From NCBI RefSeq assembly GCF_001047135.2, contig NZ_DF968078.1, positions 241,009 to 305,008 of the forward strand: a stretch of 64,000 nt of DNA, written 5' to 3'. The position numbers were made by a program, and so were the translations under genes. The notes under the pieces were generated by a model, which was not told the origin of the DNA, did no database searches, and worked only from the letters and a program-made list of their open reading frames with translations. Shown here in pieces: positions 37,554-42,825 of this stretch (positions are counted from its first letter, which is position 1; every line of letters begins with the position of its first letter). The stretch is from Fructobacillus tropaeoli (lineage in GTDB: Bacteria; Bacillota; Bacilli; Lactobacillales; Lactobacillaceae).

Positions 37554-38228
37554 TTACTTACCTCCATCTTTACTCTGAGTAACAATCATGATTCCACTGT
37601 CAAAAGACAAGTGGACCAATTCATTAATAAATTCATTTGATGACCACATTATAGCCTTACTTTCTGGCTGTGTCAAGGTATACTTCGCATCGATAATTTT
37701 CAAATTATCAACTAGACCCAATGGCATAAAACCGAGATATTTCATGCCATCAATGTGCTTCACCACCTTTTGCCCGGGCAACAAATAGGAAACAACATTC
37801 TGCTTATCGACCAGTGCCACTCGTTCTACTAAATCTGGCAAATCGATTTCTTGTGCCAATTCGGTAAAACCCTCCATTGCTGGAAAAGTTAAATTAGCCA
37901 AAAGATGATCCAGACGGCCACCGGTGGCCCCATAAACCCTGATTTCATCGGCTCCAAGACTAGCAGCGGCCTTAATGGCTAGTTGCGTATCAGTAAAGTC
38001 TTTTTCGGGTGGAAAACGATAGACATGGTTGGCTTCCAAATGGCTGATAACTTTCTCAAACTCCTCTTTTGTCAAAGAGTCAAAATCACCCACCACCGTT
38101 TGAAAGTCCATCCCGGCCTGCATCAGGTACCAGGCACCGCGGTCAGCACCCAACCACTGTCCTTCTTGCTCAAAAATATCGTCAGGCCAAAATTCAGTCG
38201 GACCCCCAGCTAAGATATTAATTCGCAT
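37554..38228 (-). CDS. thiN: Thiamine diphosphokinase
   Basis: 224 residues. Converts thiamine to thiamine diphosphate, cofactor of phosphoketolase and other enzymes. Motifs: GADRGAWYLMQAG (near 30), VVGDFDSL (near 45), PPEKDFTDTQLAIKAA (near 75-90) and GATGGRLDHLLANL (near 100-112). Sits after rpe in the conserved rsgA-rpe-thiN order. Confidence 0.94.
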   Translation of the reverse strand: MRINILAGGPTEFWPDDIFEQEGQWLGADRGAWYLMQAGMDFQTVVGDFDSLTKEEFEKVISHLEANHVYRFPPEKDFTDTQLAIKAAASLGADEIRVYGATGGRLDHLLANLTFPAMEGFTELAQEIDLPDLVERVALVDKQNVVSYLLPGQKVVKHIDGMKYLGFMPLGLVDNLKIIDAKYTLTQPESKAIMWSSNEFINELVHLSFDSGIMIVTQSKDGGK

Positions 38229-38311: not shown

Positions 38312-38968
38312 TTACTTAGTTAAATCCAGCAACTTGGCAACCTTAGCAGCTGGATCTTTCTTATCGTAAACATATGAACCAGCAACGAAGACGTTGGCAC
38401 CGGCCGCAGCCGTCAACGCAATGGTCTTGTCATTGATACCACCGTCAACTTCGATATCGTAGTCCAAGCCATTGTCTTGCTTATAGGTAGACAATTCCTT
38501 AATCTTTTCAACCATTTCTGGCAAGAAGGATTGACCACCAAAACCAGGGTTAACCGTCATGACCAAGACCTGGTCCACCATGCCTAACACAGGAATAATT
38601 GCTGATACCGGTGTTCCAGGATTAATAACCACTTCAGCCTTCACACCAGCAGCCTTAATCATTTGCAAAACACGGTGAATATGTGGCGTTGCTTCCACGT
38701 GGACACCAATCAAATCAGCACCAGCTTCAGCCAATGCTTCAACATGGTTTTCTGGGTGGACAGCCATCAAATGAACATCCAAGAACAAATCAGTTTGTGG
38801 CCGTAATTGCTTTACCCAAGCTGGACCATAAGCCATCGATGGGACAAATGACCCGTCCATCAAATCGACGTGCAAATACTTAGCACCAGCCTTTTCCACC
38901 AAGGCGACATCTTCGCCTAACTTTGTGACATCTGCACTCAAAATTGATGGAGCAATAATTCCTGCCAT
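38312..38968 (-). CDS. rpe: Ribulose-phosphate 3-epimerase
   Basis: 218 residues. Interconverts ribulose-5-P and xylulose-5-P, feeding phosphoketolase in heterofermentation. TIM-barrel motifs: APSILSAD (6-13), HVDLMDGSFVPSMAYGP (34-50), LDVHLMAVHPE, VNPGFGGQSFLPEM (near 140) and EVDGGI. Confidence 0.97.
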   Translation of the reverse strand: MAGIIAPSILSADVTKLGEDVALVEKAGAKYLHVDLMDGSFVPSMAYGPAWVKQLRPQTDLFLDVHLMAVHPENHVEALAEAGADLIGVHVEATPHIHRVLQMIKAAGVKAEVVINPGTPVSAIIPVLGMVDQVLVMTVNPGFGGQSFLPEMVEKIKELSTYKQDNGLDYDIEVDGGINDKTIALTAAAGANVFVAGSYVYDKKDPAAKVAKLLDLTK

Positions 38969-39032: not shown

Positions 39033-39938
39033 TTACTGACGCCATTTTTGGCTCGTCTTTTGGTAGACTGGCCGTTTCCCTTTAATAATTTGATAAAACA
39101 GTTCGTAACTATTATACCGTGCCTGTGAAATACTGCCAAGGGCAACCCCTTCTTTCACCGCACAGCCAGGTTCATTGATATGCGAACAAGTCCGAAAACG
39201 GCACTGACCGCTGACTGCTTTGATTTCAGGAAAGTAATTTCCTAATTCTTCAACCGGAAAATCAAAGACTTCATAGGATGAAAAGCCCGGTGTATCAGCA
39301 ATCAAAGCCTCAAAGGCTGGTACTAAGATTAACGATACTTGTCGGGTCGTATGCTTCCCACGCGAAAGCGCCTTTGAAACGACACCCGTCTCCAACTGCA
39401 ATTCTGGTGCCAAAGTATTCAGCAACGTTGACTTGCCGGCTCCTGTTTGACCCATTGCGACCACAACCTGATTTTTCAAAATTGGCTGAAAGGCGGTGGC
39501 GACATCTTCGTCCGAAACGATGACATCGTAGCCAATCGCACGATATTCGGCTAAGGTTGCGTCAAAATTCTGTCGATCAGTCGAATCAAGCAAGTCCATT
39601 TTTGAAAAATAGAGAACAGGTTTCACACCCGCGGCCTCAAGTGCCACCAACTGCCGGTCCAACAAATTTTGAGAAAAAGCTGGTTCGACTACCGATGTCA
39701 CCACAATTGCTAAATCAACATTGGCAATGGGCGGGCGCACCAAATCATTTTTCCGATCATGCAACGCCCAAATAAAACCCTCGCCATTTTCTGATTCAAA
39801 ATCAGCAAAATCGCCGACTAAGGGGCGGTGGTTTTTTTGCCGAAATTGCCCTCGCGCTCGCGTTCGCTCGACAACTCCGTCATCCATCATAATGTCATAG
39901 TAACCGGCCAATGACCGAATAATCCGTCCTGTTTTCAT
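39033..39938 (-). CDS. rsgA: Ribosome small-subunit GTPase RsgA
   Basis: 301 residues from [16 protein letters not shown]. Checks 30S maturation. N-terminal OB fold, then a circularly permuted GTPase with the order G4 (YFSKMDLL), G1 ([14 protein letters not shown]), G2/G3 (DTPGFSSYE), and a C-terminal zinc motif with Cys-His-Cys spacing (C-R-F-R-T-C-S-H then GCAVK). The -10 element TGCTATACT ends 6 bases before the ATG, suggesting a leaderless transcript. Confidence 0.96.
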
Positions 39939-39944
39939 ACGCTT

Positions 39945-39953
39945 AGTATAGCA
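39945..39953 (-). promoter_or_regulatory. Extended -10 of a likely leaderless rsgA promoter
   Basis: Minus strand TGCTATACT, then AAGCGT, then ATG. The start point of transcription would fall at the start codon; no ribosome binding site is possible in the 6-base space. The -35 region is weak, as expected for extended -10 promoters. Confidence 0.6.
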
Positions 39954-40040
39954 TATTTTTAAAAATTCCAGTGCACACCGTAAGCCGAATCTTAACAAAA
40001 AAGAAAAAAATCTAATCCTTGATGAGTCTGATTTTTAAAC

Positions 40041-40096: not shown

Positions 40097-41965
40097 TTAA
40101 TGGTTATTCGACGAGGATGAGGCGGAACTCGAAGATGAAGATGAAGACGAGCTCGATGCATTATTATTTGAATTATTACTATTGTTGTTACTATTCGAAC
40201 TGCTCTCCTGGCCAGAAGAAATCGTCAAGGTCACCGTCTTATCTGAAGTAATTTGCGACCCAGATGGTGTATCTTGAGCAATCACTTGACCACTTGGTTG
40301 GTTAGAATTCGTAAAGTTAAAACTGAGTTGAATTCGATTGGCGTTTGCCCAACTAATCGCATCACTTTGGTTCTTACCAACCAAGTTTGGCACTTGTACC
40401 TTACTTGGACCAGTTGAAACCGTTAAGGTAATTGTCGTTGAACTAGGATCAACAGAGGTAAAGGCCGCAACCGATTGCGAGATGACTTCCCCACTAGGAA
40501 CATCAGAACTAGCTTGGCTTTTTCGCTTAACGGTGAAGCCCTGACCACTTAACTGTGCAGCTGCCTCGCCATAGCTCCAACCACTATAATCCGCTAAGCT
40601 GACCTTATTCCCACCAGAGGAAACCACCAAAGAAACGGAAGTTCCCTTCTTTAGGTAGGCACCCGACCCAGGTTTCGTCTTAATCACTTGACCATTAGCC
40701 ACCGTCTTAGACGACGCATAAGTTGGACTGGAAACCGTCAATCCAGCATTAGAAAGCTTACTTTCAGCTTGGTTTAAGGACATATTAGTAACATCTGGCA
40801 TGGTAACGTAGTTACTTTCAAAATAGCTCGCACCGCCAATCCCAGCCAATAACAAGAGTAACATTACTAAGGAAACGACCCACTTTTTGGCCGACTTGTA
40901 CTTAACGCCATTTTTTGACAAAATCTGACGAACAAACTTCGGCGTCCGATCAACTTTCGTGGCAATTTCTTTAACTGACATCCCCTGCTTAGCGTAATCA
41001 ATAATTTGCTCAGTAACTGATTTTCCTTCTTCAGGATCCTTTAAAGTATCGGGGTCAGCTACGTAAGGTCGGTCGGATAAATCTGTATCGACTAAACGTG
41101 TCTCATCAGAGGTCTCCGGTACATAACGTTTTTCTTGAGATCGTCTTTTGGACAACGAGGTCTTGAGATCATCGGCCATATCTTCAGCTGAAAAATAACG
41201 ATCTGCTGGATTTTTAGCCGTTGCCCGCAAAATAACATTTTCTAATGGCTGGGGAACCTGACTGTCAAAATCGCGCACAAAAGGCATTGGCATGTTTCCA
41301 TGCTTATAAGCCACTTGTTCGGGCGTATCACCTTGATAAGGCACTCGGTTCGTCAAAAGTTCGTACAAAATAACACCCAGTGCATAAATATCGGACTGGG
41401 CAGAGGCATGCTGACCGATTGGTAGCTCCGGTGCCAGGTAGTGAATAGAGCCAATCACCGTGTGTACCTGAGTCAACGACTGCGATTTTTTGGCCGTCGC
41501 AATCCCAAAATCGGTAATCTTCACTTGCCCTTGTTTATCAATCAAGATATTTTGTGGTTTCAAATCACGATGAATAATACCGGCACGATGGGCAGCAGCC
41601 ACCGCATCCAGGATCTGTTCCATGATATCAACTACTTCGTGATAAGGGATTGGAAAATGCGCCTGGGTATAATCCTTCAAATCCATCCCATCGACATATT
41701 CCATCACTAAATATGAGGAGCCATCAAATTCACCGGCATCATAAACCTGCACAATATGGTCATTGATTAAAGCAGTTGCTGATTTTGCCTCACGTTGAAA
41801 GCGTTCAACGGCATCCGGTTGGTCCTTGATATCCAATCGAATCATCTTCAACGTGACATCACGGTTCAAATAAGTATCAAAAGCTTGGTAGACATTGGCC
41901 ATGCCGCCACCACCCAGAGGGCGCACTACTCGGTAGCGGTGATCAATCATCGTTCCTTGTTCCAT
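40097..41965 (-). CDS. pknB: PASTA-domain Ser/Thr kinase with a helix-turn-helix-like juxtamembrane segment
   Basis: 622 residues. Membrane kinase controlling cell wall and division. Kinase domain 1-275: GGGGMANVY glycine loop, VTLKMI lysine, HRDLKPQN (132-139), DFG (152-154), and SIHYLAPE. A linker to 316, then residues 317-358 resembling a recombinase/homeodomain-type HTH (EQIIDYAKQGMSVKEIATK, then DRTPKFVRQILSKNG). Membrane helix 362-380. Three PASTA-like repeats (about 387-590) and a Ser/Asn-rich tail. Its start overlaps the stp stop by one base (coupled). Confidence 0.95.
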   Translation of the reverse strand: MEQGTMIDHRYRVVRPLGGGGMANVYQAFDTYLNRDVTLKMIRLDIKDQPDAVERFQREAKSATALINDHIVQVYDAGEFDGSSYLVMEYVDGMDLKDYTQAHFPIPYHEVVDIMEQILDAVAAAHRAGIIHRDLKPQNILIDKQGQVKITDFGIATAKKSQSLTQVHTVIGSIHYLAPELPIGQHASAQSDIYALGVILYELLTNRVPYQGDTPEQVAYKHGNMPMPFVRDFDSQVPQPLENVILRATAKNPADRYFSAEDMADDLKTSLSKRRSQEKRYVPETSDETRLVDTDLSDRPYVADPDTLKDPEEGKSVTEQIIDYAKQGMSVKEIATKVDRTPKFVRQILSKNGVKYKSAKKWVVSLVMLLLLLAGIGGASYFESNYVTMPDVTNMSLNQAESKLSNAGLTVSSPTYASSKTVANGQVIKTKPGSGAYLKKGTSVSLVVSSGGNKVSLADYSGWSYGEAAAQLSGQGFTVKRKSQASSDVPSGEVISQSVAAFTSVDPSSTTITLTVSTGPSKVQVPNLVGKNQSDAISWANANRIQLSFNFTNSNQPSGQVIAQDTPSGSQITSDKTVTLTISSGQESSSNSNNNSNNSNNNASSSSSSSSSSSASSSSNNH

Positions 41966-42825
41966 TAATTTTGCCTCCCTGTTCGTTGCGGCATTTCTTG
42001 GTTATTATCTGGTATCTGACGAACGTCGGCAAAGGCCTTAGCCGCCATTTGCTGGTTTGGATTCATTAAATCAGTCACCAGCAATGCTGTAATATTGTCC
42101 GGTGCCTGGCGCGCATTGGCTGCCTTCATCAGGGCCCGGATTCGTTCGGTCAAATCTAAGACAGAACCCAATGGTGGCTCATTTCCCGGACGGTGGCGTC
42201 CTGGTTGGAGCAGCTTGACCTGGTCCTCAATTGAAAGAACCTTGGCCAACCCATCGGAGGTCAAATAGAGCCAATCGTCTTTTTTAGGGACAAAAGTCGT
42301 CCACTCAAGGTCAACTTTTTGATTAACCCCCAAATAGCGGGTCAAAGAATTGGCCTCAGGTAGGTTTTCATCATAAATTTGACCACTATCACGCTTGATT
42401 TCATTACGCAGGGTATGGTCAAAGGTCAACAATTCAGCACTTTTTCCCCGCAACAAATAGGCTCTGGAATCACCAGCGTTTGCGACTAAGATTTTCCCTG
42501 GCAAGCAAGCAGCCAAAACCACTGTTGTCGCCATATTGTTAACCCGCGGATTTTTTTGTCCAGCTAACAAAATCGCGCGGTTGGCCAAAGCAGCCTGATG
42601 CACTAGCCAGTCCTTCACGCTTTCTGGATCGGTCATATTCTTTTTTTGCCAAGCAGAACCAAGTGTTTCCACCACAATTTGACTGGCCTGCTTAGAGCCT
42701 GGATTAGAGGCAACGCCATCAGCGACAATCACTAAAGCTTCGCCCGATTGATTATAAAAGGCGCCCACTGCGTCTTGATTATCGACCCGTGTAGGGCCTT
42801 TTTCGCTGATATAAGCAATTGCCAT
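41965..42825 (-). CDS. stp: PP2C-type Ser/Thr phosphatase
   Basis: 286 residues. Reverses PknB phosphorylation. PPM metal-site residues: TRVDNQDAVGAF (Asp near 17), VIVADGVASNPGSKQAS (Asp near 35), VANAGDSRAYLL (near 115), LTSDGLAKVL and the C-terminal PDNITALLV. The C-terminal 25 residues are an extra Gln/Asn/Pro-rich tail. Overlaps pknB by one base. Confidence 0.96.
   Translation of the reverse strand: MAIAYISEKGPTRVDNQDAVGAFYNQSGEALVIVADGVASNPGSKQASQIVVETLGSAWQKKNMTDPESVKDWLVHQAALANRAILLAGQKNPRVNNMATTVVLAACLPGKILVANAGDSRAYLLRGKSAELLTFDHTLRNEIKRDSGQIYDENLPEANSLTRYLGVNQKVDLEWTTFVPKKDDWLYLTSDGLAKVLSIEDQVKLLQPGRHRPGNEPPLGSVLDLTERIRALMKAANARQAPDNITALLVTDLMNPNQQMAAKAFADVRQIPDNNQEMPQRTGRQN

Follow-up and report, generated by a model that had tools for sequence, protein, structure and literature searches.

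Does the PASTA kinase of Fructobacillus tropaeoli carry a folded helix-turn-helix (HTH) domain directly beside the membrane, and what could such a domain contact there? The initial annotation of the window, a stretch of 64,000 nucleotides (contig NZ_DF968078.1, positions 241,009 to 305,008), had proposed a recombinase-type HTH between the kinase domain and the membrane helix, at residues 317-358, and knew of no standard PknB or PrkC kinase with such a segment.

The protein scored 581 bits against the NCBIfam model NF033483 “Stk1 family PASTA kinase” (cut-off 450), and its Pkinase domain, single transmembrane (TM) helix and extracellular PASTA repeats are the architecture of the PASTA kinases. 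The HRD and DFG residues (H132 R133 D134 and D152 F153 G154) were invariant in 48 aligned kinase rows. PrkC of B. subtilis, StkP of S. pneumoniae and PknB of M. tuberculosis share the same kinase domain, juxtamembrane region, one TM helix, PASTA repeats and adjacent PP2C gene. The gene for RsmB lies upstream of the PP2C phosphatase, while genes for RsgA, ribulose-phosphate epimerase and thiamin pyrophosphokinase lie downstream of the kinase. Since we take this rsgA/rpe/thiN/phosphatase neighbourhood to be the usual place of prkC, the gene is considered the standard orthologue and not an additional kinase. Kinase activity and the sensing of peptidoglycan or lipid II would be expected of the 622-aa protein as a member of this family. 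At window position 41965, the phosphatase stop and the kinase start share one base (TAATG), as for translational coupling. The parts of the protein and its neighbours are collected in Table 1.

Table 1. Features of the kinase gene, its protein and its surroundings, with window coordinates.
Feature	Position	Strand	Basis or remark
PASTA-domain Ser/Thr protein kinase, PrkC/StkP/Stk1 orthologue, 622 aa	40097..41965	(-)	ORF, Pfam, NCBIfam
Kinase domain, residues 11-257	41195..41935	(-)	Pfam Pkinase E 4.4e-53
Acidic linker, residues 272-316; predicted disorder 286-315; holds conserved Thr289	41018..41152	(-)	Alignment and AlphaFold2
Inserted HTH domain (predicted), residues 317-358	40892..41017	(-)	Pfam, AlphaFold2, conservation
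Predicted HTH helices, residues 317-326 / 331-338 / 342-351	40988-41017 / 40952-40975 / 40913-40942	(-)	AlphaFold2
Residues preceding the third HTH helix: R340 invariant; D339, T341, P342 near-invariant (P342 is the helix start)			
Recognition-type third helix, residues 342-351; invariant V345, R346, L349	40913..40942	(-)	AlphaFold2, conservation
Transmembrane helix, residues 363-385	40811..40879	(-)	Hydrophobic stretch; AlphaFold2 helix
Three extracellular PASTA domains, residues 387 to ~583	40217..40807	(-)	Pfam PASTA E 6.3e-43, 3 stretches; AlphaFold2
Ser/Asn low-complexity tail, residues 584-622, weakly conserved	40100..40216	(-)	
PP2C-type phosphatase, PrpC/Stp orthologue by position	41965..42825	(-)	Overlaps the kinase start by one base
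rsgA, downstream neighbour of the kinase	39033..39998	(-)	
rpe, then thiN, beyond rsgA	38312-38968 and 37554-38228		

The segment was examined by profile search and structure prediction. Several Pfam HTH families matched residues 320-351, among them HTH_28, HTH_23, HTH_58, and HTH_38, all below their gathering cut-offs. HTH_28 reached an E-value of 3.8e-4 with the whole protein and 1.1e-4 with the 93-residue juxtamembrane piece, and HTH_23 reached 5.5e-4; the HTH matches of this piece ranged from 1e-4 to 0.02. The best score, 24.8 bits for HTH_28 with a 49-residue piece, fell just under the gathering cut-off of 25. AlphaFold2 predicted the three helices of Table 1 in the full protein (48 rows; full-length pTM 0.47) at a pLDDT of ~80 for the block, with residues 286-315 and 357-362 below 50. 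Three helices were also predicted for the segment alone, with a core pLDDT of ~89 from a shallow alignment of 27 rows (Neff 2.6). Residues 317-358 are therefore described as a three-helix HTH core, as predicted in both AlphaFold2 runs, and not as the single straight juxtamembrane helix that would have spoken against the initial annotation. In Foldseek searches against the PDB, GerE, the Bin3 recombinase (TM-score 0.67 on query), and SIRV ORF55 were retrieved, every one with an E-value >0.2. VIA-align 2 returned mostly nucleic-acid-binding HTHs (Bin3, the GcrA DNA-binding domain, DeoR, Tn3 and gamma-delta resolvases, and TrpR), as well as a small terminase, with Z-scores of ~6, a value usual for small helical domains of 45 residues that supports the fold class but not function or kinship.

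In the family Lactobacillaceae, the HTH profile matched 40 of 397 genomes at E<=0.001, and 37 of these matches lay in kinase-sized frames of five genera. All genomes searched in these genera carried the HTH: 13 of 13 in Fructobacillus (genus code g1), 19 of 19 in Leuconostoc (g16), 2 of 2 in Convivina (g6), and 2 of 2 (g39) and 1 of 1 (g7) in two neighbouring genera, the names of g1, g6 and g16 and of g39, “Lactobacillaceae bacterium L1_55_11”, having been assigned by sequence. It was absent from the remaining 360 family genomes searched, and weak matches in other frames of G089, G454, and G016 were not counted. The juxtamembrane letters were read directly for 25 of the 37 HTH kinases, while the others were assigned from their profile scores and frame lengths, in some cases with named copies as well. 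For Fructobacillus, the kinase was found and its HTH letters were read in all 13 genomes, so that the segment is conserved within the genus of the window. A scan of named genomes returned 23 loci, 21 of which were the HTH kinase in Fructobacillus, Convivina, Leuconostoc, and two further records. With the shorter profile A2, 11 of 395 genomes of the order matched; the six strong matches fell in the same HTH-clade genera, and weak matches in other frames of G089, G454, G280, G475, and G493 were again left uncounted.

A tree of the kinase domain with 70 rows, built with a quick method without the HTH columns, rooted on other Bacilli and containing some long rows elsewhere, grouped all 25 HTH rows together as a single clade, with an SH-aLRT support of 97 and one change. 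Because the HTH rows form one clade, the HTH appears to have been gained once and never lost among the genomes searched. The insertion is dated by this tree to the presumed common ancestor of Leuconostoc, Fructobacillus, Convivina, and the two sister genera. Genus g29, which lacks the HTH, was sister to the clade (support 93), with g18 nearby; we suspect these to be Oenococcus and Weissella. A recent phage origin was considered and rejected, as a scan of viral contigs with alignment A3 matched one stretch, which encoded no relative. Within its own genome, the segment matched only the kinase at E<=10, and no paralogous donor was found there.

The HTH is more conserved than the parts surrounding it. 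Mean pairwise identity over 28 rows was 0.71 for the kinase domain and 0.64 for the HTH, compared to 0.41 for the linker, 0.24 for the TM helix, and 0.46-0.54 for the PASTA repeats, and none of 261 other non-kinase windows reached the level of the HTH. Linker and TM helix thus vary on both sides of a conserved HTH. Invariant in these rows were I321, I334, V338, R340, V345, R346, L349, and G353, and near-invariant were D339, T341, P342, N352, and K355. Codon comparisons gave a dN of 0.034 and a dS of 0.039 for the closest pair (window and L003), with very few changes, and 0.068 and 0.417 for the window and L004; as synonymous change is saturated beyond L004, these ratios are weak evidence and speak partly against constraint. 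They hint at purifying selection on the HTH only at larger distances. An obligatory phosphorylation switch at T341 was also considered, but is weakened because L004 carries Met at this position (1 of 28 rows).

PASTA kinases were found in 246 of 249 Bacillota genomes. As controls served 94 juxtamembrane regions without this HTH, 39 from other genera of the family and 55 from other Bacillota, after 15 of 70 phylum loci (no usable frame) and 2 of 41 other-family loci (no frame or TM call) had been dropped. No Pfam HTH family matched any of the 94 regions at E<=0.01. Together with the restriction to 37 kinases of five genera within the family, this agrees with the initial remark that standard PknB and PrkC kinases lack such a segment. 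Across 54 loci of the HTH clade, the juxtamembrane region was 93-102 residues long; the median was 75 for the other members of the family and 62 for the phylum sample, and this difference in length fits an insertion. A non-folded juxtamembrane region is common in PASTA kinases, although not defining for them, whereas an HTH is predicted here. In the acidic linker, Thr289 (window 41099-41101 on the minus strand) lies in a short acidic motif after the kinase domain, DET[RK][LV], and was invariant in 48 kinases; a Thr column conserved to at least 90% also occurs in the 94 control regions. Thr289 is probably the counterpart of an autophosphorylated Thr of PrkC.

The closest sequence relatives of the HTH were searched for with its profile in 398 Bacillota genomes, 34 of which matched at E<=0.01. 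All 19 fetched loci other than the kinase itself contained TPRYVRT[IV]L in frames of ~210-260 aa where whole. Pfam scans of 13 of these relatives placed a UTRA domain above the cut-off in nine and under it in one, and gave none for the remaining three. Between the kinase HTH and the UTRA-regulator HTH, hhalign gave 98.2% and a score of 65, while the maxima over 100 column shuffles were 9.7% and 17.9, and the value for the reversed alignment was 0.2%. The UTRA-regulator HTH TTPRYVRTILSE aligns with RTPKYVRxVLxxNGI of the kinases. The exposed positions T341, P342, Y/F344, and R346 are common to both, whereas R340, N352, G353, and K355 are conserved in the kinases and not common to the UTRA HTHs. 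By sequence, the nearest relatives are thus placed among the N-terminal HTHs of UTRA-domain transcription regulators. These have the same HTH subtype with a near-identical start of the recognition helix, but are ~210-260 aa long and lack the kinase and PASTA parts; the kinase, in turn, has the TTPRYVR-type HTH and no Pfam UTRA match. Because GntR/HutC-type regulators carry UTRA as their effector domain, the nearest kin of the HTH are presumed to bind DNA. The recombinase label of the initial annotation therefore holds only in part, for shape, with Bin3 and the gamma-delta and Tn3 resolvases among the best structural matches. Kinship with resolvases or recombinases was rejected, as the Bin3 sequence matches were non-significant (E 0.27 and 0.51) and the nearest sequence relatives are the UTRA-regulator HTHs. 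As a separate observation, the regulators at L100-L118 are Bacillota UTRA regulators whose N-terminal TTPRYVR HTH is missed by the Pfam HTH models or scored under the cut-off.

A small HTH of DNA-binding type would thus have been inserted once into the disordered juxtamembrane linker of a wall-sensing PASTA kinase, where it most likely still contacts DNA. The predicted domain lies ~11 residues from the TM helix; on its other side, a disordered acidic linker, ~30-45 residues long, leads to the kinase domain. With the HTH beside the membrane on a flexible linker, the membrane-bound kinase could touch membrane-near chromosome, for example near the division site. Such contact might cluster or orient kinase molecules and raise trans-autophosphorylation, or it might position the kinase with respect to the nucleoid; a single protein would then bring together the sensing of the wall outside and the position of the chromosome inside. 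Computational support exists for the predicted fold, for its conservation, single origin and position, and for its homology with regulator HTHs; from these we infer DNA binding and its effects on kinase activity. That DNA binding by the HTH modulates clustering or position of the kinase has, in our estimate, an even chance of being right. The broader reading, in which the membrane-tethered HTH directly recognises a specific DNA site or senses where the chromosome lies, so that peptidoglycan signal and DNA jointly set the output, falls somewhat short of even. It may even be that the kinase is by itself a membrane-bound transcription regulator, with its kinase domain as the switch for DNA binding.

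These readings compete with explanations in which the HTH is no HTH, binds protein, or binds nothing. Chance scoring of a helical linker against HTH profiles would agree with single-sequence Pfam scores under the gathering cut-offs and with the Foldseek E-values, but it is very improbable given the 94 control regions without a match, the retrieval of the regulator family by the HTH profile (E down to 1.7e-9 per genome), the hhalign result with its shuffle control, conservation across 37 genomes, and the agreement of the two AlphaFold2 predictions. A folded spacer or dimerisation element without a ligand of its own, which would set the spacing and arrangement of the kinase with respect to the membrane, is improbable too. 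Small tri-helical domains often dimerise, and linker lengths vary freely (37-111 residues in 55 other Bacillota), but a spacer has no need for the conserved exposed-type R340, R346, N352, and K355 or for the regulator-like letters of the recognition helix.

By analogy, the HTH could also be a docking module through which a substrate, a division protein, or a protein of the transcription machinery is brought to the membrane kinase; we hold this main alternative to be a serious possibility of clearly less than even probability. HTH folds also bind proteins; RodZ has a cytosolic HTH beside a single TM helix and an extracytoplasmic part, and this HTH binds MreB. Of the conserved residues, the kinase-specific R340, N352, G353, and K355 might serve protein contact. 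The juxtamembrane domain of StkP is described as needed for phosphorylation of MapZ, EloR, and DivIVA and, when phosphorylated, as favouring recruitment of division proteins (PMC12077195). The recognition-helix residues in common with the regulators (T341, P342, Y344, R346) are expected to face DNA, which speaks for DNA contact and against docking. DNA contact is also favoured by the net charge of residues 317-358, +1 to +8 across 28 rows, although its modest value in some species (+1 in L008 and L009) counts against DNA binding. RodZ itself differs in that it is not a kinase, has an HTH of another family (HTH_25) and is separately present in the same genomes; HTH_25 was not among the Pfam matches of the kinase, which sets the kinase apart from RodZ. 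Substitution for RodZ is unlikely because all nine HTH-kinase genomes tested encode a RodZ-type HTH_25 protein (~290 aa) and strong MreB matches. Over all genomes tested, RodZ-type proteins were found in 18 of 18 and strong MreB matches in 17 of 18, and the kinase HTH as a simple RodZ replacement was rejected. The exception, G015 (g4), lacks the kinase HTH and has a RodZ-type HTH_25 protein; its only MreB-family match was weak and in a 620-residue frame that is probably DnaK, and no true MreB was seen there.

Among described kinases, StkP has a juxtamembrane domain that is intrinsically disordered by SAXS and NMR, whereas the Fructobacillus kinase has a predicted HTH in this place (PMC12077195). 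YabT of B. subtilis is a membrane-anchored Hanks-type Ser/Thr kinase that, like the HTH kinase, has a short region between kinase domain and TM helix, in its case DNA-binding, and is activated by DNA through this basic juxtamembrane segment (PMC6333020). The segment of YabT is highly basic, disordered without DNA and without sequence preference (PMC6333020). It is not an HTH, and YabT has no extracellular sensor. The Fructobacillus kinase is not filed as a YabT member because three PASTA stretches are present, and a YabT-like DNA-dependent activity would be a likeness in working only. No published report of an HTH in a PASTA kinase was found in the open-licence PMC literature. A term search of the main text of a survey from 2005 on the architectures of prokaryotic Ser/Thr kinases gave no mention of HTH or DNA binding (PMC1262709), and in the relevant part of a review from 2015 on eSTKs and transcription the term HTH refers to substrates and regulators, not kinases (PMC4601284). 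The HTH-bearing PASTA kinase is accordingly a new, clade-specific architecture within a known kinase family, and is under constraint.

The clade offers a natural experiment in which a conserved, foldable binding module was placed in the juxtamembrane region of a PASTA kinase and kept throughout. The contact made by this region, be it DNA or protein, becomes approachable through a single small domain with two conserved arginines. If the contact is DNA, a single kinase would link wall sensing to chromosome position, and joint control of the kinase by wall and DNA would be a fixed trait of an entire clade of lactic acid bacteria. To our knowledge, the nearest precedent is the sporulation kinase YabT.

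Two further observations concern the family at large. The kinase was found at E<=1e-30 in 191 of 201 family genomes, and the small genomes without it at this threshold included G037, G073, G103, G128, G151, G173, and G193 of genus g26 as well as G039 (g28) and G045 (g34); rechecked at 1e-8, G037, G073, G039, and G045 were still without a PASTA kinase. By sequence search, the kinase seems to have been lost from the whole genus g26. In the sister genus g18, the kinase at L126:1177-1578 (minus strand) has a juxtamembrane region of 124 residues with an unusual insert that gave no Pfam match and may represent another domain, independently inserted at this site.
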